From positions 1 to 33,961 of the forward strand of contig DXBP01000015.1 of the NCBI GenBank assembly GCA_019116445.1: a DNA stretch of 33,961 nucleotides. The letters are read 5' to 3'. This document shows, in pieces, positions 4,668 to 15,699 of the stretch; the first letter of the stretch is position 1; each line of letters begins with the position of its first letter. The translations under genes were made by a program, and so were the position numbers. The notes beneath the pieces are model-generated. The model had not been told where the DNA came from. It made no database searches and worked only from the letters and a program-made list of their open reading frames with translations. The stretch comes from Candidatus Gemmiger excrementigallinarum (GTDB lineage: Bacteria; Bacillota; Clostridia; Oscillospirales; Ruminococcaceae).

Positions 4668-7322
4668 ATGAAAGTATCCAACGGCAGCTGCATCCGCCGG
4701 TTGAGCGTACGGGCCCTGCTGGCCAACCGTACCCGCAATATTGTGGCGGTGCTGGCTATTGCCCTTACGGCGGTATTGTTTACGTCGCTCTTTACCATCG
4801 CCCTGTCCATCAATGAGGGTATCCAGCAGAACAATTTCCGCCAGGCCGGGGGCTGTTCCCACGGCAGTTTCAAATACTTGACGGAAGAACAGTGTGAGGA
4901 ACTGAAAACCGATCCTCTCATTCAAGCGTATGGTATCCGCCGCTTTCTGGGGATGCCCACGGCGGCGCCCTTCAACAAGTCCCATGTGGAGATCGGTTAC
5001 TCCGACGCCAACGAGGCCCGCTGGGGCTACTGTGTTCCCGTAGAGGGCCGCCTCCCCCAGGAAGGCACCAACGAAGCGGCTACCGACACCCATGTGCTGG
5101 AATTGCTGGGCGTGGAGCCGGAGATCGGCGCGGAATTTACCGTCACCTTTGAGGTGGACGGCCGCGAAACTACCCAGACCTTTACCCTGTGCGGTTGGTG
5201 GGAATATGACGAGGCTGTTGTAGCCAACCATATCCTTATCCCCGAAAGCCGGTTGAATACCGTTTTGGCGGAAGTAGGAGTGACCCCGCCGGGCAGCGAC
5301 AGTATGACCGGAAGCTGGAACCTGGACGTGATGCTTCGGCACGGTGCCCGGTCCATTGCCGCGGATATGGAGGGAATCCTGGCAAACCACGGTTACCAGT
5401 CTGAAACCGCGGGGGAAAACTATATCTCCATCGGTGTCAACTGGGGGTACACCGGGGCGCAGCTCTCAGACAAACTGGATCCTACCGTGGTGGCTATTAT
5501 TGTGGGGATGCTGGCCCTTATTCTGTTTACCGGTTATCTCATCATCTACAATGTCTTTCAGATTTCGGTGGCGGGGGATATCCGTTTTTACGGTCAGCTG
5601 AAAACCATCGGCACCACGCCCCGCCAACTGCGGCGGATTATCCTCATTCAGGCGTTGTTGCTTTCTTCGGTGGGCATCCCCGTGGGCCTGCTGCTGGGGT
5701 GGTTTCTGGGCGGCGTGCTCACTCCGGTGATCACCGCACGGCTCGACGGGGTGACGACGGTGGTTTCGGTCAGTCCACTGCTCTTTGTGGGGGCGGCTGT
5801 TTTCGCCCTGGCAACAGTGCTCATTTCCTGCCGCCGCCCCGGACGTCTGGCAGGTAAGGTTTCTCCGGTAGAAGCGTTGCGCTATACCGAGGGAAAAGCC
5901 TTGCACCGAAAAGAAAAACGAAACAGAAAAGGAGTGTCTTTGCTGTCCATGGCCTGGGCCAATCTGGGCCGCAGCCGGGGCAAAACCTCCCTCACGGTGC
6001 TGTCCCTCACATTGGCGGTGGTGCTGCTGACCTTCACCGTCACCTTTGCAGGCGGTTTTGATATGGACAAATATGTGTCCAACTTCACGGCCAGCGACTT
6101 TATCCTGGCGGATGCAGGGCAGTTCCAGACCGGTGGGGAGGTCTTTAACGATGAGATGGGCGTGCCGGCCGAAGTTATCGACGCTGTGAACGCCCAGGGC
6201 GGCATCACGGACAGCGGCCGCGTCTATGGTAAGACAGCGCCGGCCCAGGAGTTTGTCACCGAGGAATACTACCGCTCTATGTGGAGTCGGTGGAACACCC
6301 CCGAGCAGCTGGACAGTATGGTGGCCTTCATGGACCGAACGGCCGATGGCCTGCTGGCAGACGGGGTGCAACTCTACGGTATGGAGCCCTTTGCCCTGGA
6401 CCACCTGACAGTGCTGGAAGGGGATCTTTCCCAACTCAATGACCCCGAAGGCAACTATATTGCCGCCGTGTACAGCACCGATGACTACGGTGACCCGGTC
6501 ATGGGGAGTCATTGGGCCCGGCTGGGCGATACCGTGACCATCCGCTATGTGGAAGAGTTTGAATATTATGACCCTGCCACCGGTGAAGTCTACGGTTCCC
6601 GGGAGAATGTGCCCGAAAATGCTGTTTACGCTGAACGGGCCGTGAAATACCGTGAGGTAAAGTATACCGTGGCGGCCCTGGTATCCGTGCCGTCTGCGTT
6701 GAGTTACCGTTACTACGGCAGGGACGAGTTCGTTCTGGGGGCAGAAACGTTTATCCGGGATACCGGCACAGATTCTGTGATGTACTACGCTTTTGATACC
6801 ACCAAGGCGTCCAATGCGGCTATGGAAGCCTTCCTCAAAGACTATACGGAAAATGTGAACCCTCAGTTCGATTATGAGAGCAAAGCCATTTATGCCGCAG
6901 AATTTGAGAGTATTCGAAGTATGTTCCTTTTGCTGGGCGGGGCCCTTAGCTTCATTGTGGGGCTGGTAGGGGTACTCAACTTCTTCAATGCCATTCTTAC
7001 CGGCATTACCGCCCGCCGCCGGGAACTGGCAGTGCTTCAGTCCATTGGCATGACCACCCGGCAGCTGCGCGCGATGCTGGCGCTGGAGGGGCTGCTGTAT
7101 ACCCTGGGGTCTGCCCTGCTGGCCCTTGTTCTGGTTCTGGTTACGACGCCCATTGTGGGGCCCGGTCTTAACGGAATGTTTTGGTTCTTCGCCTATCATT
7201 TTACCCTCTGGCCCATCGCAGTGGTCCTGCCGCTGTTTGCGGTGCTGGGGATCGGGATTCCGGTGGTGACCTGTCGGATCACTCAGCGCTACTCGGTGGT
7301 GGAACGGCTGCGGGTAGAGTAA
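4668..7322 (+). CDS. FtsX-type ABC transporter permease with two extracellular domains
   Basis: This 884-residue integral membrane protein has two FtsX/MacB-like halves. An N-terminal membrane helix (about 22-46) is followed by an extracellular domain of about 220 residues. Three helices follow (around 270-300, 325-355, 365-390), then a cytoplasmic link and a fifth helix near 440-460. A second large extracellular domain (about 465-745) precedes three final helices. Each half ends with the FtsX-type pattern in which a basic segment such as TTPRQLRRI or TTRQLRAM sits between helices. With the ATPase upstream it probably forms an exporter or a mechanotransmission complex for antimicrobial peptides or envelope components. 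Paired with the adjacent two-component system it resembles a resistance/stress module, but the substrate cannot be read from the sequence. Confidence 0.9.
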   Translation: MKVSNGSCIRRLSVRALLANRTRNIVAVLAIALTAVLFTSLFTIALSINEGIQQNNFRQAGGCSHGSFKYLTEEQCEELKTDPLIQAYGIRRFLGMPTAAPFNKSHVEIGYSDANEARWGYCVPVEGRLPQEGTNEAATDTHVLELLGVEPEIGAEFTVTFEVDGRETTQTFTLCGWWEYDEAVVANHILIPESRLNTVLAEVGVTPPGSDSMTGSWNLDVMLRHGARSIAADMEGILANHGYQSETAGENYISIGVNWGYTGAQLSDKLDPTVVAIIVGMLALILFTGYLIIYNVFQISVAGDIRFYGQLKTIGTTPRQLRRIILIQALLLSSVGIPVGLLLGWFLGGVLTPVITARLDGVTTVVSVSPLLFVGAAVFALATVLISCRRPGRLAGKVSPVEALRYTEGKALHRKEKRNRKGVSLLSMAWANLGRSRGKTSLTVLSLTLAVVLLTFTVTFAGGFDMDKYVSNFTASDFILADAGQFQTGGEVFNDEMGVPAEVIDAVNAQGGITDSGRVYGKTAPAQEFVTEEYYRSMWSRWNTPEQLDSMVAFMDRTADGLLADGVQLYGMEPFALDHLTVLEGDLSQLNDPEGNYIAAVYSTDDYGDPVMGSHWARLGDTVTIRYVEEFEYYDPATGEVYGSRENVPENAVYAERAVKYREVKYTVAALVSVPSALSYRYYGRDEFVLGAETFIRDTGTDSVMYYAFDTTKASNAAMEAFLKDYTENVNPQFDYESKAIYAAEFESIRSMFLLLGGALSFIVGLVGVLNFFNAILTGITARRRELAVLQSIGMTTRQLRAMLALEGLLYTLGSALLALVLVLVTTPIVGPGLNGMFWFFAYHFTLWPIAVVLPLFAVLGIGIPVVTCRITQRYSVVERLRVE

Positions 7323-7344
7323 GCGTGCACAAAACAGCAAAAAA

Positions 7345-7379
7345 TCCCGGGGGCCTTGCTGCGCAAGGCCCCCGGGATA
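7345..7379. terminator. Bidirectional terminator between permease and MFS genes
   Basis: A 16-bp perfect, very GC-rich stem (7345-7360 with 7364-7379) has a three-base loop. It sits between two convergent genes. The five A residues at 7341-7345 become a T-run on the minus strand, so it is a good terminator for the MFS gene. On the plus strand the following bases (actttgcttt) are less T-rich but the stem is very strong. Confidence 0.9.
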
Positions 7380-7426
7380 CTTTGCTTTATGGATGGACAG
7401 ATGTTTGATTGAGAGGGGGATGGCGT

Positions 7427-8593
7427 TTAAGCCAGCCGCAGTTTGCGGTAGTAGTGGTCAACATATACAACGTATACGATGGCACCGATTCCATAGGCAA
7501 TAGCAGTCAAAGCAAAGCCGACAGGAAGGCCCAGGGATTCCTGCATAAAGCCCATAAGCAGCGAACCGATGCCAATGCCCACATCATAAGAGAGCATATA
7601 AGTGGCGTTGGCCACACCCCGCTTGGGTGCGGGGGTGGTGCCGGTGACAAAGGACTGGAACAACGGCTGCAGAATTCCGTACCCCAACCCGAAAAAGAAG
7701 CCGGCGGCCAGCAGATGTACGCCGGTAGACAGGAACAGATAGCTGATCATTGTCAGAATCAGAATTACCAGGCTGAGATAGACGAGTACCCGATGATGAC
7801 CTGCATCGATCATCTTCTGCGTGGACAGCTTGGAAACCAGCATCCCCACCACGAGGCAGATGTAAAAATAGGGCAGATAGGCGGAAAGTGATTTTTCCTG
7901 TGCCAGGATGGAAGAGTAGGCAATCACAGCGCCATAGGGAATCATCAAAAACATCATGTTGAACATAAACGGCAGGGCAGGTCCATAGATGGAATCCCGG
8001 AGAGAAAACTTTTTGCGCTGCACTTTCGGGTATTTGATGCGGCAGCAGGAAACACAGATAAATGCCAGTACGGTGATGCCGAAAATTGTCAGGAAGGAAG
8101 CCTTACTGCTCATGTGGCTCTGGACCTGCAGACCCACATAGGGTCCTACCGCCATACCGATGGAAACGGTAAAAGCAAAGCGGCTGATGCCTTCGGTGAT
8201 TTTGGTGGGAGGCAGTACATCGCCGGCCAGTGTCATGGTTGCCGAACCACATACGGAATAAACGGCGCCCATGTACAATCGAATCACGATCAAAGCGCCG
8301 AACAGGGGGAAGGCAATGAACGCCGGGAAGGAAAGGCAGAACAGGGCCAGAAACAGCAGATAAACCCGATAGCGGTTAAAGTTATCCAGCGGATACCCGG
8401 CCACCGGACGGAACAGAATGGTGGCTACCGACATAGCCGTCAGGACGATGCCCACCCGGGAACCGGTAATGCCAATCTCCTGGCAGTAGATAGGGATAAT
8501 GGGGATGGATGCATAAAAGGCAGCCAGCACCAACAGGTTTGTAAGGAAAAGAAGGATAAATCTTCGATTCCAGATTTTTTGATTTTTTTCCAT
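7427..8593 (-). CDS. Major facilitator superfamily transporter (drug-efflux-like)
   Basis: This is a 388-residue integral membrane protein with about twelve hydrophobic segments and a short cytoplasmic start (MEKNQKIWNRRF). The loop between helices 2 and 3 has a degenerate motif A (RPVAGYPLDNFNRYRVY), and a glycine/proline-rich helix 5 (SIGMAVGPYVG) resembles the antiporter motif C of drug exporters. The start is taken at 8593 because AAAGGAG lies about eight bases upstream on the minus strand. A longer frame from 8725 would cross the operator region. The gene is divergent from a MarR regulator and its predicted promoter is covered by a palindrome, so an inducible efflux pump is the most likely role. 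The substrate is unknown. Confidence 0.9.
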   Translation of the reverse strand: MEKNQKIWNRRFILLFLTNLLVLAAFYASIPIIPIYCQEIGITGSRVGIVLTAMSVATILFRPVAGYPLDNFNRYRVYLLFLALFCLSFPAFIAFPLFGALIVIRLYMGAVYSVCGSATMTLAGDVLPPTKITEGISRFAFTVSIGMAVGPYVGLQVQSHMSSKASFLTIFGITVLAFICVSCCRIKYPKVQRKKFSLRDSIYGPALPFMFNMMFLMIPYGAVIAYSSILAQEKSLSAYLPYFYICLVVGMLVSKLSTQKMIDAGHHRVLVYLSLVILILTMISYLFLSTGVHLLAAGFFFGLGYGILQPLFQSFVTGTTPAPKRGVANATYMLSYDVGIGIGSLLMGFMQESLGLPVGFALTAIAYGIGAIVYVVYVDHYYRKLRLA

Positions 8594-8630
8594 AGCATAA
8601 GCTCCTTTTGTAAACGGTAAAAATGCAAAA

Positions 8631-8656
8631 AATATAGTGGCAATTGCCACTATATT
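8631..8656. promoter_or_regulatory. Perfect 26-bp palindromic operator (MarR-type)
   Basis: The half-site AATATAGTGGCAA (8631-8643) is followed immediately by its exact reverse complement (8644-8656). There is no loop and no T-run, so this is a DNA-binding site rather than a terminator. The right end contains TATATT on the minus strand (8636-8631), a plausible -10 for the MFS gene with TTTAAT 17 bp upstream. Binding here would block the exporter promoter. The MarR protein encoded next door is the obvious ligand. Confidence 0.8.
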
Positions 8657-8688
8657 AAAACAGCACGAATTTTGTGCGGCGTCAATAC

Positions 8689-8706
8689 TGGTTGCAAATG
8701 CCACCA
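8689..8706. promoter_or_regulatory. Second, imperfect operator over the marR -35
   Basis: TGGTTGCAAATGCCACCA matches its own reverse complement at 14 of 18 positions. It also matches the central 18 bp of the perfect palindrome (8635-8652) at 14 of 18. It covers the -35 box of the marR promoter, and the two sites are centred 54 bp apart. It is best read as a weaker autoregulatory site. Confidence 0.6.
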
Positions 8707-8720
8707 AAAGAAGATATAAT
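8692..8720 (+). promoter_or_regulatory. marR promoter
   Basis: TTGCAA (8692-8697) and TATAAT (8715-8720) have a 17-bp spacer. The -35 lies inside the second operator. The leader to the ATG at 8744 is short and holds the AAAGGGGGAAG ribosome binding site. Confidence 0.8.
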
Positions 8721-8743
8721 GACAATCAAAAGGGGGAAGCACG

Positions 8744-9178
8744 ATGGCCTATACAACAGACAGCCCGTTCAAGTCCATCTCGATTTTATACAGAAAATCT
8801 CACATCTGGCTCAACAGCGGGTGCGCCCGGTATGACCTTACAGCGGCACAGGCGTTGGTGATTTTGATCGTGTGTGATTTTAAAATGCTTACTCAGGATG
8901 AAATCACCAAGCGTCTTTCTCTGGATAAAAGTGTCATCGCCAAAACGGTGAATAAACTTTTGGAAACGGGATTTTTGCTGCGTCAAACCAATGCCCGCGA
9001 TAAACGCACCTATGATATATGCGCCACAGAAAAAGCCTGGGAAGCATACCCGGTAGTAAAAGAGGAAGTGGAGCGGTGCTTTCAGCGCATGACGCAGCGC
9101 ATGACCGACGAAGAGCGGGAAACTTTTCGCCGGCTGCTCCTTTTGGCGGAAGAAACGACTCTGGAACAGGAAGAATAA
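8744..9178 (+). CDS. MarR-family transcriptional regulator
   Basis: This 144-residue cytoplasmic DNA-binding protein has the MarR layout. The N-terminal helices (RKSHIWLNSGCARYDLTAAQALVI) form the dimer interface. A winged helix-turn-helix follows (about 45-95), with LTQDEITKRLSLDKSVIAKTV as the recognition region, and the wing carries the typical R-D-K-R motif (NARDKRTYDI). C-terminal helices close the dimer. It is divergent from an MFS exporter across a 150-bp region with two matching palindromes, so it very probably represses both the exporter and itself and is released by a small ligand. The inducer cannot be told from sequence. Confidence 0.93.
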   Translation: MAYTTDSPFKSISILYRKSHIWLNSGCARYDLTAAQALVILIVCDFKMLTQDEITKRLSLDKSVIAKTVNKLLETGFLLRQTNARDKRTYDICATEKAWEAYPVVKEEVERCFQRMTQRMTDEERETFRRLLLLAEETTLEQEE

Positions 9179-9244
9179 AGTGTATCTGTTCGCACCCCGT
9201 ACCTGCAAACCGGAGCCGATCCAGTGGAATTTTGCGGCAGAATC

Positions 9245-9253
9245 TGCTACAAT
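9245..9253 (+). promoter_or_regulatory. Extended -10 element for ogt
   Basis: TGC followed by TACAAT (9248-9253) makes an extended -10, with only a poor -35 (TGGAAT at 9225-9230). The predicted leader is about 27 bases to the ATG at 9287. Confidence 0.5.
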
Positions 9254-9286
9254 GTAGCCATACAAAGGGACAGGGGGACTACCGGT

Positions 9287-9802
9287 ATGCTGTATTATAC
9301 AAACTATCCATCCCCTCTGGGTGAAATTTTGCTTCTGGCTACAGAGGAGGCACTTGCCGGGGTCTGGCTTCCCGGGCAAGCAGTGGATCAAAAACTTCTG
9401 GCGCAGGCGCAGCGGTGGGACCAGGCTCCGCTTTTGGTTGCTGGCTGTGCGTGGCTGGAACGTTACTTTCACGGGGCGTGCCCGGTGCCGCAAGAACTCC
9501 CTTTGGCACCCCAAGGCACGCCGTTCCGCCAGAGGGTTTGGAAACGACTTTGCGAAATCCCCTATGGGCAGCTGGTTACTTACGGCCAACTTGCCGGTGA
9601 AATAGCCGAAGCGGATGGGCATAAAATGTCAGCCCAGGCGGTGGGCGGTGCCGTGGGACATAATCCCATCAGCATCATAATTCCTTGCCACCGGGTAATC
9701 GGTGCAAATGGCAACCTGGTGGGATACGGCGGTGGTCTGGCGTTGAAAAAACGTCTTTTGGAATACGAGGGCATTGATATCCGGACCCTGTATAACCCCT
9801 AA
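9287..9802 (+). CDS. ogt: Methylated-DNA-[protein]-cysteine S-methyltransferase
   Basis: This suicide repair enzyme removes alkyl groups from O6-alkylguanine and O4-alkylthymine in DNA by transferring them to its own cysteine. It is 171 residues, the same size as E. coli Ogt. The active-site PCHR (Cys134) lies in IIIPCHRVIG. The DNA-binding segment RQRVWKRLCEIPYG and the asparagine hinge region AVGHNP precede it. The start is the ATG at 9287, which follows a CAGGGGGA ribosome binding site. An upstream TTG at 9224 would lie before the predicted promoter. It is transcribed in the same direction as marR and the following peptidase gene but appears to have its own promoter. Confidence 0.95.
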   Translation: MLYYTNYPSPLGEILLLATEEALAGVWLPGQAVDQKLLAQAQRWDQAPLLVAGCAWLERYFHGACPVPQELPLAPQGTPFRQRVWKRLCEIPYGQLVTYGQLAGEIAEADGHKMSAQAVGGAVGHNPISIIIPCHRVIGANGNLVGYGGGLALKKRLLEYEGIDIRTLYNP

Positions 9803-9851: not shown

Positions 9852-10814
9852 ATGAAGGAAATTGCAATCACGGAATTTGAAAACCTGAAAATCGGTCAGG
9901 CAGAAAATGTTCAGGCAGGTACCGGATGTACGGTTTTGCTGCTTGGCAAGGAAGGCGCCCCGGCGGGGCTGGATGTGCAGGGCGGCGGCCCGGCTTCCCG
10001 AGAAAGCGAATTGCTGAAACCGACGGCCGCAGCGGGGGTCATCCATGCCATTCTGCTGTCCGGCGGCAGCGCTTTCGGCCTGGATGCTGCCGGGGGCGTG
10101 ATGCGCTATCTGGAAGAGCGGAATATCGGTTTTGATGTGGGGGTTACAAAGGTGCCGCTGGTCTGCCAGTCCTGCCTGTTTGATCTGACAGTGGCCGATG
10201 CCTCCACGCGCCCGGATGCGGCAATGGCCTATCGTGCCTGCCAGAATGCCGAACAAGGCAACTATCGGGACGGCAACTTTGGCGCCGGTACCGGTGCCAC
10301 GGTAGGCAAACTGCTGGGTATGGACTATTGCATGAAATCCGGCATTGGCAGTTACGCCATTCAGACCGGGGAGCTGAAAGTCGGTGCGATTGTGGCTGTC
10401 AATGCATTGGGGGATATCTATGACTGGCAAACCGGCCGTAAGGCGGCGGGCCTTCTTGCGGAAGATCACAAGACTTTTTTGGATGCCGAACAGGTAATGC
10501 TCCGGAAAACCGAGGTGGTGGAGAACAAATTCGTCGGTAATACGACGTTGGGCGTGATTCTCACCAATGCGGCCTTTGACAAGACACGTCTGTGCAAGAT
10601 CGCGGGCATGGCTCATGATGGCTATGCCCGGGCCATTCGTCCGGTGCACACTACCGCAGATGGGGACAGCATCTATGCGGTATCCCTTGGCACGGTGGCA
10701 GCCGACCAGGATGTTGTGGGAGCGTTGGGGGCACAGGTCATGGCAACAGCCATTGTTCGCGCCGTGCAGGCTGCAAAGTCTGTATACGGCTTTCCGGCAG
10801 CCTGTGATCTGTAA
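9852..10814 (+). CDS. P1-family (DmpA/NylC-like) peptidase or amidase
   Basis: This is a 320-residue enzyme of the N-terminal-nucleophile S58/P1 family, which includes DmpA, beta-aminopeptidases and the nylon hydrolase NylC. Members are made as one chain that cuts itself to expose a catalytic Thr or Ser. Family landmarks are the LLSGGSAFGLDAAGGV block (68-83), NFGAGTGATVGK (142-153) and KVGAIVAVNALGD (176-188). NTTLGVILTNA (230-240) predicts self-cleavage between Asn230 and Thr231. There is no signal peptide, so it acts in the cytosol. The ribosome binding site GGAGAAGG precedes ATG 9852. The substrate is unknown. A strong terminator follows. Confidence 0.9.
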   Translation: MKEIAITEFENLKIGQAENVQAGTGCTVLLLGKEGAPAGLDVQGGGPASRESELLKPTAAAGVIHAILLSGGSAFGLDAAGGVMRYLEERNIGFDVGVTKVPLVCQSCLFDLTVADASTRPDAAMAYRACQNAEQGNYRDGNFGAGTGATVGKLLGMDYCMKSGIGSYAIQTGELKVGAIVAVNALGDIYDWQTGRKAAGLLAEDHKTFLDAEQVMLRKTEVVENKFVGNTTLGVILTNAAFDKTRLCKIAGMAHDGYARAIRPVHTTADGDSIYAVSLGTVAADQDVVGALGAQVMATAIVRAVQAAKSVYGFPAACDL

Positions 10815-10828
10815 ATTTGTAAAAAATG

Positions 10829-10861
10829 AAAGTTCCCGCCGTAAAACGGCGGGAACTTTTT
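10829..10861 (+). terminator. Intrinsic terminator after the P1 peptidase
   Basis: A 13-bp perfect stem (AAAGTTCCCGCCG at 10829-10841, complement at 10847-10859) has a five-base loop and ends in Ts. It separates the peptidase from the ligase cluster. Confidence 0.92.
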
Positions 10862-10871
10862 GGTGGGGCCG

Positions 10872-10900
10872 TTGCCTTGCCGGAACTTTCGGGGTATAAT
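10872..10900 (+). promoter_or_regulatory. Promoter of the glutamate-cysteine ligase/ATP-grasp operon
   Basis: TTGCCT (10872-10877) and TATAAT (10895-10900) are 17 bp apart, immediately after the upstream terminator. The ligase ATG lies at 10950, preceded by GGGAG at 10936-10940. No riboswitch or operator palindrome is visible in the short leader. Confidence 0.78.
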
Positions 10901-10949
10901 AGGAAAACCGAAAACGGTGCGAATTTTCATCTGCCGGGAGTTCTGGAAT

Positions 10950-12182
10950 ATGGCAAAACTGGACGAACAAAAACGGGTCTTGATTGAATACTTTCAGCAA
11001 GGATGCAAGCCGGAAGGCAAGCTCACGCTGGGGCTGGAAGTGGAGCATTTTGTCACACATGCAGGCGGCGAGCCTGTTACTTTTGCAGAGATACAAAGTG
11101 TCATGCGGCAGATGCAGCAGCCTTACGATACCCCCATTATGATTGATGGGGAATACATGGGCTATATGACGGAATCCTACGGTATTTCGCTGGAGCCTGC
11201 CTGCCAGGTGGAAATCAGTATCATGCCGCAGAGCAGTGTGCCGCGGATCATGGATATCTATAACCAGTTTTACCTGCAGCTGAGCATGACGTTGGCGGCC
11301 CGGGGGCTCCGGGCCTGGACGGTAAGCTACCATCCCACCCGCCGCGCCGAGGAACTGCCCCTGATCCCGAAACAACGGTACGAAGCCATGGACCGCTACT
11401 TTAAAAATACCGGTTCCTGCGGTATCCAGATGATGCGTGCCACGACTTCCACGCAGCTGTCCATAGACTATTTCAACGAGCGGGATTTTGTCCAAAAGAT
11501 GCGGGCTGCGTGTTTGCTGACGCCTTTCTTTGCGCTGCTCAGTGACAATGCGGTGCGTTATCAGGCAAACCGCAACAATGCCTACAGTGTGCGTACCCGC
11601 ATCTGGCAGGATGTGGACTCCGAGCGGTGCGGCGTGCCGCCCCATCTGATGGACCCGGATTTCGGGTTTGAACGGTATGCCGAAACAATTCTGACGCGGC
11701 CGCTGATTGTGGCGCTGCGGGGGAACCGTACCAAAGCGGTAGGATGCAAAAGCGCCCAGGAAATTTACGGCAGCCATCTGCTGAAAAAAGAAGTGGAACA
11801 CGTTTTGTCCATGTTCTTCTTTGATGTGCGGCTGAAAACCTATCTGGAGATTCGTGGGGCAGACTGTATGCCGCCTAAGTTTATCGCCGCCTATGCGCAG
11901 CTGGTAAAGACGATTTTCGGCAGTCAGGCGGCGCTGCAGAATGTGCTGCGCCACTACGAGGGCGTTACCACCGGCGACATCGCCAATGCAAAAATGGCGG
12001 TTTGCAAGGATGGCTATAATGCCTGGGTTTATGGCCGTCCCATCGGCAAAGAACTGGCCTGGCTTTTGCTGCAGGCCCGCAGCCGCACCCCCTCGCAGGA
12101 GGAACGTGCACTGCTGGAACCGCTGGCCAAGCTGATTGTTACAAAGAAAACCATACGGGAAGAAGAATCCGAAAATGACTGA
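10950..12182 (+). CDS. Glutamate-cysteine ligase family (GCS2-type) carboxylate-amine ligase
   Basis: This 410-residue cytoplasmic enzyme belongs to the GCS2 fold used by plant-type gamma-glutamylcysteine synthetase, EgtA and related ligases, which join glutamate through its side-chain carboxylate to an amine using ATP. The ATP/metal-binding LGLEVEHF is at 27-34, and LEPACQVEIS (81-90) corresponds to the family's LEP-G-Q-E-S motif. An MMRATTSTQLSIDY stretch and a basic RTRIWQDVD segment follow. The ATG at 10950 has GGGAG ten bases upstream; a longer frame would begin inside the terminator. It overlaps the next ATP-grasp gene by eight bases, so the products are made together. The amine substrate (cysteine or another amino acid) is not provable here. 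Confidence 0.85.
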   Translation: MAKLDEQKRVLIEYFQQGCKPEGKLTLGLEVEHFVTHAGGEPVTFAEIQSVMRQMQQPYDTPIMIDGEYMGYMTESYGISLEPACQVEISIMPQSSVPRIMDIYNQFYLQLSMTLAARGLRAWTVSYHPTRRAEELPLIPKQRYEAMDRYFKNTGSCGIQMMRATTSTQLSIDYFNERDFVQKMRAACLLTPFFALLSDNAVRYQANRNNAYSVRTRIWQDVDSERCGVPPHLMDPDFGFERYAETILTRPLIVALRGNRTKAVGCKSAQEIYGSHLLKKEVEHVLSMFFFDVRLKTYLEIRGADCMPPKFIAAYAQLVKTIFGSQAALQNVLRHYEGVTTGDIANAKMAVCKDGYNAWVYGRPIGKELAWLLLQARSRTPSQEERALLEPLAKLIVTKKTIREEESEND

Positions 12183-13509
12183 ACTGCAAGCGATAAATGA
12201 GTCCTATCTGGCAGCAGCTGCTGCCGACCCGAACCGTTTGGCGGAAGAATTTGATGCCATTACGGAATACATGAAGGCATCCACGGCCATCCACCATGGG
12301 GAATATGTACGTACCTGCTATATGCCCAAACTGTTTACCGAAAAAATTTTTGCAGGCTTTTCAGCAGACATCCAAACGCTGTACGGAATCCTTGCCAAAG
12401 TGATGCGGGCCTATTACCGGGGCCCTGCTTACCGGAAACTGTTCGGCTTTGACCGTACGACGGAAGAACTGATACTCCGCGCTGATCCGTCTGTTTCGTT
12501 GCTGCCCATGGCGAGAATTGACTTCTTTTACAACGAACAGACCGGCGCTTATAAATATTGCGAATTCAATACAGACGGAACCAGTGCCATGAATGAGGAC
12601 CGGGAACTGAACAAGGCCCAGGAACTGTCCACGGTATATCGCGAATTCCGGGCGGCGCACAGCACACGGACCTGTGAACTGTTCAACAGTTGGGTCAAAA
12701 CACTGTGTGAAGTTTATCACCGGGCACGTCATACGCAACAAACGCCGTATGTGGCCATTGTGGATTTTATGGACTGCGGAACGGTCAATGAATTTGAAGT
12801 GTTCCAGGGATATTTTGTTCAGAACGGTGTTCCGGCGGAAGTTTGCGATTTGCGCAGTCTGCGGTATGATGAAGCCAAAAAGGTGCTGTATGGCCCCGGC
12901 GGGCATAAAATCGATGCCATTTACCGCCGTGCGGTCACCAGTGATATTCTGGAACGGTACGAGGAATGCGGTCCGTTGCTGGCTGCGGTACGGGACGATG
13001 CGGTGTTGCTGGTAGGGGATTTCCATACCCAGCTTGTGCACAACAAAACCATTTTCCGGATTTTGCATGAACCCCAGACGCAGAAGCTGCTGACGCCGGA
13101 GGAACAGGCTTTTGTGCTGGCTCATGTGCCGCTGACCAAAACGTTTGAAGCTGCGGATATTCCCCGCGCCCTGGCTGATAAAGATGCCTGGATTCTCAAA
13201 CCGCTGGATTCCTACGCGTCCCGCGGCGTGCATGCCGGCGTGGAATCTACCCCGGAGGAGTGGGAAAAAATCGTCCGCTCCACACCGCTGACAGGCTATT
13301 TGCTGCAGGAATTTTATCGTCCGTACGTGACGGAAAATTTCGGCATTGGTCCCGACGGAAAATTCGGCCGAAACCGCTATTACAACCTGACCGGTGTGTA
13401 TGTTTACGACGGCGTGGCACAGGGGATTTATTCCCGCGTTTCGCTGACTCCCATCATCTCCAGCCAGTACAGTGAAAAAACGCTGCCGACGCTGTTGGTG
13501 GCTGAATAA
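12175..13509 (+). CDS. ATP-grasp ligase, glutathionylspermidine-synthase-like
   Basis: This 444-residue cytoplasmic protein looks like a circularly permuted ATP-grasp ligase of the glutathionylspermidine synthase/YgiC group. CEFNTDGTSAMNEDREL (129-145) resembles the metal- and ATP-binding block of that group. DFMDCGTVNEFEVFQGYF and VEVCD-like segments follow. ILKPLDSYASRGVHAG (340-355) is the lysine/glycine-rich nucleotide loop, and LLQEFY (376-381) plus NLTGVYVYDGVAQGIYSR (404-421) complete the ATP site. ATP-grasp enzymes make amide bonds between a carboxylate and an amine. Because its start (ATG 12175) lies inside the glutamate-ligase gene, it probably extends or modifies the gamma-glutamyl product. 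Family placement is by motif reading only and no precise substrate is claimed. Confidence 0.72.
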   Translation: MTELQAINESYLAAAAADPNRLAEEFDAITEYMKASTAIHHGEYVRTCYMPKLFTEKIFAGFSADIQTLYGILAKVMRAYYRGPAYRKLFGFDRTTEELILRADPSVSLLPMARIDFFYNEQTGAYKYCEFNTDGTSAMNEDRELNKAQELSTVYREFRAAHSTRTCELFNSWVKTLCEVYHRARHTQQTPYVAIVDFMDCGTVNEFEVFQGYFVQNGVPAEVCDLRSLRYDEAKKVLYGPGGHKIDAIYRRAVTSDILERYEECGPLLAAVRDDAVLLVGDFHTQLVHNKTIFRILHEPQTQKLLTPEEQAFVLAHVPLTKTFEAADIPRALADKDAWILKPLDSYASRGVHAGVESTPEEWEKIVRSTPLTGYLLQEFYRPYVTENFGIGPDGKFGRNRYYNLTGVYVYDGVAQGIYSRVSLTPIISSQYSEKTLPTLLVAE

Positions 13510-13560
13510 ACGCGCAGCAGATCAGGCATACTAACCCCAAAAACAAAGGGGCGTGGCTGC

Positions 13561-14082
13561 GTGCGGGAAACATCTTATCATGCTGTGATTACCGAGATGA
13601 CGGTGCGCGCCCTGTGGGAAACACAGAACGTCATCGACTGCATCCCGGACGAAATGTGGGACAAACTCTATGGCGGTTCGCCCCTGTGGCAGCATCTGTA
13701 TCATATGCTGCACAGCCTGGATCAGTGGTTTATCAATCCCCGGGCCAATGACTTTGTGGAACCGCCGATCCATACCCCTGACCTGCAGGACCTCGACATC
13801 TACCCGGCTACCCACTTGGACCGCAGACAAATCGACGCATATTTTTATACGATCAAGGCAAAGCTGTCGTTGTATCTGACCTCTCTGCACGACGAGGATC
13901 TTCTGCAGCGGCCGGAAAACTGTGAATGGACACGGTTTACTTTGATATTGTCGCAGTACCGGCACCTGCATCTGCATCTGGGTATGCTGATGGGATTTGT
14001 GGTGTCGGAAATCGGACTGTGCCCGCGGACGCTGGAACCGGGCGATGAATTCCCGCGCCCGCCTTACGACCCCTATCGCTGA
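13561..14082 (+). CDS. DinB/YfiT-fold protein (possible thiol-dependent transferase)
   Basis: This 173-residue protein has the look of the DinB four-helix-bundle superfamily. An N-terminal helix ends in IPDEMWDKLYGG, followed by the metal-type histidine helix LWQHLYHMLHSLDQWF (His45, His48, His51). A C-terminal helix QYRHLHLHLGML carries further histidines (135, 137, 139). The fold includes bacillithiol and mycothiol S-transferases as well as proteins of unknown role. The GTG start at 13561 is backed by AAAGGGG about nine bases upstream. It follows the two ligase genes by 51 bases with no terminator between, so it is probably in the same operon. A role in using the ligases' product is attractive but inferred. 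Confidence 0.7.
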   Translation: MRETSYHAVITEMTVRALWETQNVIDCIPDEMWDKLYGGSPLWQHLYHMLHSLDQWFINPRANDFVEPPIHTPDLQDLDIYPATHLDRRQIDAYFYTIKAKLSLYLTSLHDEDLLQRPENCEWTRFTLILSQYRHLHLHLGMLMGFVVSEIGLCPRTLEPGDEFPRPPYDPYR

Positions 14083-14097
14083 GGAAAGGAACCATCT

Positions 14098-14586
14098 ATG
14101 AAGAAACCCTATTGTATTGTACCGCTGTGCCTGCTGGTGCTGGGCGGGTGTGCATCGGCACCGGTGGATACGACCCCGGTGTGGTCGGAGCAACTGCCGG
14201 AAACCGGTGTACAGATGGAACTGAGCAACTGCGAACTCTTGGGGGAGGAACCGGTATATTATACGCTGGACCGGGACAGCACCGAAAAGTGGAGGGAAAA
14301 ACCGGCACTGCAGACCAAGGGCGTGCCGGTCGTGACGCTTTGGGGCGTTACAGAGGATGAAGTGGAACTTCGCTATGTGGAAAATATCGACACGCTGTAT
14401 TTGTATTACGACAGGGTAATGCCCCAGCAGGATCTGGACTACATAAAAACAGAAACGGCAGACGGTGGTCTGCAGTATCGGCTGGATACGGTATACAACT
14501 TTGAGTTTGTGATCACAACGCCGGATGGTACCGATACAATGATCATTACCTGTGAGCGGGATGGCCTTACCGATACCGCAGAATAA
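14098..14586 (+). CDS. Small secreted lipoprotein of unknown function
   Basis: This 162-residue protein has a short lipoprotein signal: a KK start, a hydrophobic stretch and the lipobox LVLGGC, so Cys18 should be lipid-anchored at the outer face of the membrane. The mature part is acidic and probably beta-rich (YYTLDRD, VVTLWGVTEDEVELRYV, TLYLYYDRV, FEFVITTPDGTDTMIITCE). I do not recognise a family. It begins 15 bases after the DinB-like gene with an AGGAAAGGA ribosome binding site and is likely cotranscribed with the ligase cluster. A terminator follows. Confidence 0.75.
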   Translation: MKKPYCIVPLCLLVLGGCASAPVDTTPVWSEQLPETGVQMELSNCELLGEEPVYYTLDRDSTEKWREKPALQTKGVPVVTLWGVTEDEVELRYVENIDTLYLYYDRVMPQQDLDYIKTETADGGLQYRLDTVYNFEFVITTPDGTDTMIITCERDGLTDTAE

Positions 14587-14594
14587 TATAACAG

Positions 14595-14628
14595 AAAGCC
14601 CCCGGCGGAAAATCCCGTCGGGGGCTTT
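14595..14628. terminator. Bidirectional terminator between lipoprotein and mscS genes
   Basis: A 14-bp stem with one G-T pair (AAAGCCCCCGGCGG at 14595-14608 with 14615-14628) lies between two convergent genes. The flanking A/T bases serve either direction, though the T-run is short. Confidence 0.82.
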
Positions 14629-14640
14629 GGTGTGTGTAAA

Positions 14641-15699
14641 TCAGTTTTTGGCGGCAGGCATATCCAGTGTGGTGGTGGGGAAGGCGAAGCTGCAGCCGGC
14701 GTTGGCGACCAATTGCATGATTTCCAGGTTCAGACGGCTTTTTTCCTGCAGGAATTCGCCGTAAGGCAGGGTTGTTACGTACAGGCGCGCCAGAATGTCG
14801 ATGCTGTAATCGTTGAATTTGTCCACGGTGACTGTAACGGTGTCCGCCTGCACAGAAGGCTGTGCCTTGAGCATTTCGGACAGATCGTGGCAAACCTGGC
14901 TCAGTTGCTCACGGGTAGTATCATAGGTCAGCCCCAGGGTGAATTGCCACAGGCGGCTGCTGCGCTGGTTGCAGTTCTGGATATATTCCGAACAGACTTT
15001 GGAATTTTCGATCGTGACGGCAACGTTGTCCGTTGTGCGGATGCGGGTGGAACGGAAGGAAATATCCTCCACGGTACCTTCGGAAGAACCCAGGATCACA
15101 TAATCCCCGATGCCAAAGGGGTGTTCCAGCACCAGCGTGATGCCGGCAATCAGGTTGGACAGGGTGGACTGTGCGGCCAGAGAAATGGCAAGGCCGGCAA
15201 CACCGGCGCCGGTCAGCAACCCGGCTACAGGAACACCCAGGCGGTCCAGCATGGCGATGCCGGTAAAGACCGTGACCAGTGCCCGGAAGATGTTTTCAAA
15301 AAAGCACCCCATGGTGTTGTTGGTGGTAAGGTCCAACTTGTTCTGCGCGCTGCGCAGCAGCAGGCGGCACATCGGCGCGGAACGCCAGGCGCCCAGGCCA
15401 ATCAGGAAGGTGAGCGCCAGGTCAAACAGCAACCGCAGCACGGTAAGATAGGTGGCACTGTTGAAACTGAACGGCACGACTACCAGAGCCAGATACAGCA
15501 GTACCGAGCGCAGGATCAGGGCGGTAGGCTGTACATAGCTGTCAAACAGGATATACAGCCATTCGGACAGATGACCGTGCAAGCCGTCCAGAATGCGGCG
15601 GATGATGCGCGTGTACAAAATGGGAAGGACCAAAGAGCCCAGGGCCAGCAAAACGGTGGGTAGCAGGTCCAGCAACAGGGTTACAGTAAATACTTGCAT
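14641..15699 (-). CDS. Mechanosensitive ion channel, MscS family
   Basis: This 352-residue membrane protein opens under membrane tension to release solutes during osmotic downshock. Several N-terminal hydrophobic helices (about 5-30, 55-80, 85-108, 135-150) precede the glycine/alanine-rich pore helix TGAGVAGLAISLAAQSTLSNLIAG. The beta domain motif EHPFGIGDYVI and the GTVEDISFRSTRIRTTDN block follow, as usual for MscS. The C-terminal alpha/beta domain (about 260-345) is complete. The minus-strand ATG at 15699 follows a GGAG. It has its own promoter, which overlaps that of the divergent riboflavin transporter. The gene symbol is left blank because MscS paralogues are not separable by eye. Confidence 0.93.
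   Translation of the reverse strand: MQVFTVTLLLDLLPTVLLALGSLVLPILYTRIIRRILDGLHGHLSEWLYILFDSYVQPTALILRSVLLYLALVVVPFSFNSATYLTVLRLLFDLALTFLIGLGAWRSAPMCRLLLRSAQNKLDLTTNNTMGCFFENIFRALVTVFTGIAMLDRLGVPVAGLLTGAGVAGLAISLAAQSTLSNLIAGITLVLEHPFGIGDYVILGSSEGTVEDISFRSTRIRTTDNVAVTIENSKVCSEYIQNCNQRSSRLWQFTLGLTYDTTREQLSQVCHDLSEMLKAQPSVQADTVTVTVDKFNDYSIDILARLYVTTLPYGEFLQEKSRLNLEIMQLVANAGCSFAFPTTTLDMPAAKN

Follow-up and report, generated by a model that had tools for sequence, protein, structure and literature searches.

A paired GCS2 ligase and ATP-grasp ligase of Gemmiger and other Bacillota as a candidate glutathione-type biosynthetic route

The stretch of DNA analysed here (the window) comprises 33,961 nucleotides from Candidatus Gemmiger excrementigallinarum (contig DXBP01000015.1, assembly GCA_019116445.1) and contains, at positions 10872-14082, three open and co-directional genes for a GCS2 ligase, an ATP-grasp ligase and a DinB-fold protein. 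The first gene (10950-12182, + strand) encodes a predicted γ-glutamylcysteine ligase of 410 residues that is nearest to the plant-type glutamate-cysteine ligases (GCL), and the second (12175-13509, + strand) a circularly-permuted-type ATP-grasp ligase of 444 residues, which is a predicted glutathione synthetase analogue. The third (13561-14082, + strand) specifies a DinB/YfiT-fold protein of 173 residues, a predicted metal-dependent thiol transferase-like accessory. The GCS2 gene starts with ATG at 10950, a column occupied by methionine in 18 of 19 aligned relatives, and not at 10872, which is the first base of an upstream promoter-like site (TTGCCT-17-TATAAT, 10872-10900, + strand). This site was called from its consensus match alone (10 of 12 bases), and six such sites occur in the region scanned where 3.5 are expected. 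The ATP-grasp gene starts with ATG at 12175 and overlaps the GCS2 gene by exactly eight bases (ATGACTGA), while the DinB gene begins with GTG at 13561, 51 bases past the ATP-grasp stop. No convincing terminator was found between the three genes; five terminator-like sites in 10700-14750 compare with 4.2 expected by chance. The coordinates and the terminator scan hence agree with the arrangement given by the original prediction for this DNA, i. e. an eight-base overlap of the two ligase genes, with DinB next in the same direction and no terminator. The sole long terminator-like site (10829-10859) lies upstream of the GCS2 gene and was called on the - strand only; it is a strong 14-pair inverted repeat between an S58-type peptidase gene and the promoter-like site.

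The GCS2 protein matches PF04107 well above its curated cut-off (E = 4.5e-28; 98.9 bits against 21), and plant glutamate-cysteine ligases are its best matches among named models and structures. With 181.1 bits it stays under the cut-off of 463.15 for TIGR01436 (plant GCL), by which it is a related protein and no equivalog, while the plant GCL structures 6gmo/2gwc are matched at about 4e-40 over residues 9-333. EgtA and thus ergothioneine biosynthesis were rejected, as the protein scores far under the TIGR03444 cut-off (85.3 bits against 370.8); the remaining Egt genes were not part of this search.

In contrast to its partner, the ATP-grasp protein is hardly recognised by annotation models. It reaches PF03738 with E = 6.9e-6 and 25.9 bits, which is below the cut-off of 29.3, and 18 of 37 homologues match this family at E 0.01. 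The Pfam scan gave no second domain beyond this sub-threshold match, and there is no NCBIfam match at E 0.01, hence none to TIGR01435 or NF002688; the sole TIGR01435 match of the window genome is weak and located elsewhere (contig C33, 9e-4). The prokaryotic GshB family PF02955 is matched by one of the 37 homologues (3.6e-4), which is not the window protein, and the eukaryotic glutathione synthetase (GSS) family is absent among the seven Pfam families that the 37 homologues match at E 0.01. On the NCBIfam and Pfam results, a GshF half and a proteobacterial GshB were both rejected, so that the second enzyme is indeed neither of the two, as had been anticipated.

The AF2 model of the ATP-grasp protein (pLDDT 93.7, pTM 0.92) places it closest to eukaryotic enzymes. 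In Foldseek, ranks 1-11 are all GSS, homoglutathione synthetase or GSS-like chains (TM 0.73/0.71 with 8fbz_B), the best chains being those of human GSS (4.9e-20), soybean homoglutathione synthetase (3.5e-19) and yeast GSS (1.4e-17), followed by glutathionylspermidine synthetase (GspS, 1.2e-16), YgiC (1.1e-15) and Cp1B (3.8e-14). A plain glutathionylspermidine synthetase was rejected, since the protein is under the family cut-off, no second domain was found in it, and eukaryotic GSS folds outrank GspS and YgiC. Residues R114, D116, E130, N132, K291, K342, Q378 and R421 are invariant in all 37 aligned homologues, and K336 is lysine in 35 and arginine in two of them. The motif R114-x-D116...E130-x-N132 aligns with trypanothione synthetase (TryS) and presumably binds the ATP phosphates and magnesium, as in GspS/TryS. 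By motif resemblance, R421 may correspond to the acceptor-carboxylate arginine of GSS. The predicted nucleotide- and metal-binding residues of the ATP-grasp protein are hence intact, and a loss of the ATP site, which would have spoken against a functional ligase, is not seen.

The two ligase genes recur together far beyond Gemmiger. Of 391 genomes sampled from the class, 29 (own genome included) carry the ATP-grasp gene and 36 carry GCS2, with 26 genomes in common, while a phylum sample of 348 genomes contains a full-length ATP-grasp gene in 23, all 23 with GCS2, which itself occurs in 31. Several of the sampled genomes are incomplete, so that an absence in those is weak evidence. Outside the genus, 48 genomes have a full-length ATP-grasp match (28 from the class sample and 20 further ones from the phylum sample). 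In 44 of these, GCS2 lies immediately upstream on the same strand or is fused; this count includes G208 (locus L065), whose GCS2 match carries one in-frame TAG and is either a pseudogene or a sequencing error. Among the remaining four, GCS2 sits on a different contig in G175 and is missing from G362, G398 and G411. Genome G171 encodes a natural GCS2-ATP-grasp fusion in one continuous frame of 886 residues with no internal stop. GCS2 and ATP-grasp are co-inherited, as the sequence distances of the two proteins correlate closely (r = 0.94, 65 loci; none of 1000 permutations was as high). The pair, not the trio, is the conserved unit. The gene arrangement exceeds chance, as the order repeats within the genus and that of the first two genes across the phylum.

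Further architectures and neighbours were encountered in this comparison. Three loci with larger frames (L156, L157, L158; 823-880 residues, E 1e-18 to 1e-22) were left out of the 20 phylum loci owing to their different architecture; L156, the one that was checked, consists of a CP_ATPgrasp_2-like part and a GSP_synth part, and conserved small neighbours occur at L156-L158. In four loci of family f35 (L059, L065, L068, L078), a Met_gamma_lyase gene (PF06838, checked on L059) adjoins the pair or the lone ATP-grasp gene, and three of them also contain a small ABM-domain gene. Two loci lie outside both samples, namely L161 and the Lachnospiraceae locus L027. The former is from the Selenomonas ruminantium plasmid pSRC2 and contains GCS2, a MATE exporter gene and the ATP-grasp gene in a tight run (4981-9323); its annotation names the GCS2 product a glutamate-cysteine ligase family protein and lists the ATP-grasp protein as hypothetical. 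MATE genes also directly precede the ATP-grasp gene in L027 and a GshF-type GshB gene in L160.

A census of neighbouring genes yielded glyoxalase as the sole leading family (6 of 122 neighbours scanned, with 157 listed). Glyoxalase I (GloA), above its curated cut-off, is encoded divergently beside the pair in 6 of the 20 phylum loci from four families (L131, L138, L141, L142, L145, L149), whereby the gene in L145 sits one gene away. Genome-wide, GloA above this cut-off is present in 12 of 49 genomes with the ATP-grasp gene and in none of 31 without it (p = 0.0015). At E 1e-30, a cut chosen after the data had been seen, the counts are 16 of 49 and 0 of 31.

Genomes in which one of the two enzymes is exchanged give an indication of the substrate. 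TIGR01435 was searched in 70 ATP-grasp genomes, i. e. 29 from the class sample, 21 further Gemmiger and 20 from the phylum sample. Exactly four of these 70 lack GCS2 (G362, G398, G411 and Gemmiger G028), and all four carry a class I GshA (PF04262, 4.9e-59 to 8e-55) with no GshB half, while the other 66 gave no match over the GshA half of TIGR01435. By label shuffling, with relatedness ignored, this pattern would arise about once in 916,895. A match over the GshA half was also obtained in 2 of 29 genomes with neither gene (G061, G085). To our knowledge, γ-Glu-Cys is the only product shared by the GCS2 and class I GshA ligase families. The exchange strongly suggests γ-Glu-Cys as the shared substrate of the second step and, indirectly, the use of cysteine by the GCS2 enzyme.

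These data also bear on the idea that the amine used by this GCS2 branch is not cysteine, in which case the pair would make non-thiol γ-glutamyl peptides or amides. GCS2 is a broad family, with EgtA and YbdK-type models also matching the protein below cut-off, and the MATE exporter genes in pSRC2 and L027 could fit an exported metabolite. However, the class I GshA family that takes the place of GCS2 in all four searched genomes without it is known for cysteine, and both the plant glutamate-cysteine ligases as best GCS2 matches and the GloA neighbours of the pair speak against such products, which we thus consider very unlikely.

The second step appears to be exchangeable as well. Ten class genomes contain GCS2 without the ATP-grasp gene, and four of them (G090, G122, G174, G220) have a standalone GshF-type GshB match, which in G090 reaches 518.8 bits against a cut-off of 425. 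In the GCS2 tree, whose root is arbitrary, G122, G174 and G220, which have GshB only, are sister to G282, which carries a GshF-type GshB in addition to the ATP-grasp gene, and G090 is placed apart from them. Because G090 falls elsewhere in this tree, replacement of the step-2 enzyme looks independent in G090 and in G122/G174/G220. TIGR01435 matches with E above 1e-6 were set aside as weak. Matches over the ATP-grasp half in frames of about 500-960 residues were also set aside, as cyanophycin-synthetase-type ligases, because of their frame size and because a GshB half also matches those models; both groups were discounted as a whole, not case by case. In five further GCS2-only class genomes (L088, L089, L091, L092, L094), the GCS2 gene overlaps a following gene from one cluster of class II glutamine amidotransferases (GATase_4 with a weak EgtC match; checked on L091). 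These form one clade in the GCS2 tree and represent a second, different GCS2 gene pair, and in L152, a gene of this cluster lies directly after one for a class I GshA. The GCS2-only class genome G407 has neither GshB nor an amidotransferase-cluster partner.

Taken together, the ATP-grasp protein is reasonably likely to be an unrecognised, non-orthologous bacterial glutathione synthetase with a circularly permuted, eukaryotic GSS/GspS-like fold, and the pair would then make a glutathione-type product. In the proposed route, GCS2 would join the γ-carboxyl group of glutamate to cysteine to form γ-Glu-Cys. Its cysteine carboxyl group may then be activated by the ATP-grasp protein as an acyl phosphate, and attack by an amine would couple an amino acid, most likely glycine, to afford glutathione or a very close tripeptide analogue. 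Because of the enzyme swaps, glycine is the simplest acceptor, and we assign it with moderate confidence. The two-step γ-glutamyl synthesis by GCS2 and ATP-grasp that had been predicted is supported in this form: the second enzyme has an intact ATP motif and differs from both a standard GshB and a GshF half.

Conceivably, γ-Glu-Cys is instead joined to β-alanine, serine, another amino acid or a polyamine, which would result in a homoglutathione-like or undescribed thiol. Mutations in a fission-yeast GSS reportedly changed its acceptor from glycine to β-alanine or serine (PMC3473041), and the nearest folds of the ATP-grasp protein include homoglutathione synthetase (β-alanine), GspS and YgiC. 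According to one study, the best profile match Cp1B couples trans-epoxysuccinate to L-amino acids, and its structural neighbours are homoglutathione synthetase and YgiC/YjfC, the latter named peptidylpolyamine synthetases (PMC12568646); a different acceptor is possible because of these neighbours. Yet the alternation with a GshF-type glutathione synthetase and the GloA genes by some pairs fit glutathione most simply, and the invariant R421, if it is the acceptor-carboxylate arginine, would favour an amino acid over a polyamine. Another acceptor is hence possible but rather unlikely. It is similarly doubtful that an undescribed γ-Glu-Cys-X thiol, in which X is not glycine but perhaps another amino acid or an amine, is the chief low-molecular-weight thiol in many anaerobic Bacillota and is used by DinB in Gemmiger. 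An undescribed thiol had been the original prediction; it is still possible but less likely than glutathione, given the GshF-type alternation and GloA beside some pairs.

Several points weigh against a glutathione synthetase, for which all evidence is computational. In the Foldseek alignments, the identity of the protein to solved glutathione synthetases is about 10-16%, and the top profile hits in the PDB are not GSS but Cp1B (4.6e-6), the putative glutathionylspermidine synthase 3n6x (0.0034) and trypanothione synthetase (0.0056). The ATP-grasp fold, as judged from Cp1B and YgiC/YjfC, takes varied acids and amines. GloA was found near the pair in none of 28 class genomes, and its genome-wide contrast depends on the threshold, with 18 of 49 against 8 of 31 genomes at E 1e-20; even the GloA of E. 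coli scores under the model's curated cut-off, and the p-values are generous, since the genomes are related and kinship was ignored. Glutathione peroxidase (E < 1e-30) is only weakly enriched: it occurs in 10 of the 29 ATP-grasp genomes and in 4 of the 29 that have neither gene (p = 0.06), and is also present in 8 of 10 GCS2-only genomes. In the window genome, which is 83% complete, neither GloA (at E 1e-20) nor glutathione peroxidase (at E 0.001) was detected. At L027, no GCS2 accompanies the ATP-grasp gene in the 12.3 kb that the locus spans; the search did not extend to the rest of that genome. Finally, in the Gemmiger genomes G006, G017 and G027, GCS2 is directly followed by DinB, the ATP-grasp gene is missing, and the search gave no GshF-type GshB. 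Because their clade nests within the Gemmiger pair in the GCS2 tree, a loss of the ATP-grasp gene with retention of DinB is probable.

The DinB protein matches DinB_2 (PF12867) above the cut-off (2.2e-6), and its model is of modest quality (pLDDT 81.6). Its best Foldseek matches are DinB/YfiT proteins, among them BstA and mycothiol S-transferase, with weak E-values of 0.005-0.07 and none at 0.001 or better. His48, His135 and His139, which we take to be the metal ligands, are invariant in 18 of 18 sequences. In Gemmiger, the protein may use a γ-Glu-Cys-type thiol as a transferase, a role that we assign very tentatively. Among 35 Gemmiger genomes (own and 34 others), the ATP-grasp gene occurs in 22, GCS2 in 25 and DinB in 26. 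A further genome, G001, has GCS2 without an ATP-grasp match, but its contig ends just past GCS2, so that it decides nothing.

That the ligases make a dedicated new thiol with DinB as its S-transferase is consistent with the presence of DinB in 20 of the 22 ATP-grasp Gemmiger genomes (it is absent from two), its position after GCS2 in the three genomes without ATP-grasp, its intact histidine pattern and its weak fold matches to thiol S-transferases. However, a six-frame scan detected DinB near the pair in none of 61 loci outside Gemmiger, and it is present in three of nine Gemmiger genomes without either ligase. As it is kept where ATP-grasp is absent, DinB also seems not to need the final product, and a dedicated three-gene system is thus extremely unlikely. 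The trio was rejected as a conserved unit on these distributions, an outcome that the original prediction itself had named as speaking against it, and DinB is an accessory whose association with the pair was observed in Gemmiger only. Downstream of DinB, the window encodes a small predicted lipoprotein-like gene (14098-14586) without a Pfam match that evolves fast (25-75% identity to relatives). By tblastn, it accompanies 20 of the 22 ATP-grasp loci in Gemmiger, and it adjoins DinB in three genomes without the ligases.

Among open-licence PMC papers, no description of the GCS2 and ATP-grasp pair was found. Reviews describe separate GshA and GshB, the GshF fusion, and ATP-grasp proteins recruited for the second step (PMC10295655; PMC7278568), and Clostridium perfringens has been described with a GshAB-type enzyme (PMC2940859). 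A thiol survey used E. coli and cyanobacterial gshA/gshB as queries at 30% identity or more (PMC6282198), and probably misses the second enzyme. Surveys limited to known gshA, gshB and gshF would probably do so in general. What would be new here is a glutathione-type pathway whose second enzyme is missed by gene-annotation models. If the assignment is true, glutathione-type thiol synthesis goes unannotated in a minority of the phylum (the pair being present in 23 of 348 genomes), including a gut genus, and many microbes of the gut and other anaerobes would possess an unannotated antioxidant pathway. The swaps between GCS2 and GshA and between ATP-grasp and GshB make the substrate directly testable.

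Each of the known systems shares some of these features. BstA and mycothiol S-transferase have the DinB fold and the invariant histidines in common with the window DinB protein, at 17% and 12% identity, respectively. Cp1B (9cjn), the ATP-grasp enzyme of the E-64 pathway, is the best sequence-profile match in the PDB, but is fungal, acts on trans-epoxysuccinate and shares 14% identity in the Foldseek alignment. GspS, YgiC/YjfC and trypanothione synthetase have the pre-ATP-grasp fold, and the last of these aligns over the R-x-D...E-x-N motif, while the window protein differs from these enzymes in that it scores under the PF03738 cut-off, no other domain was found in it, and it is paired with GCS2. 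Eukaryotic-type GSS and homoglutathione synthetase (8fbz, 3kal, 1m0w) are the best structural matches, have a similar length and likewise act with a γ-Glu-Cys ligase; in contrast to these, the window protein with its low identity stands outside the GSS Pfam family, is bacterial, and overlaps or is fused with GCS2. GshF/GshAB and the standalone GshB half also proceed via γ-Glu-Cys to a tripeptide, and fusion has occurred here too (G171). Yet the models matched by the GshF-type GshB examined (L160) are those of RimK and D-Ala-D-Ala ligase, and PF04262 is the family of the GshA half, whereas the pair described here consists of GCS2 and a GSS/GspS-like ATP-grasp protein. If the assignment is true, an ATP-grasp protein would once more have been recruited independently for the second step, and the fusion would be a parallel to GshF built from different parts.

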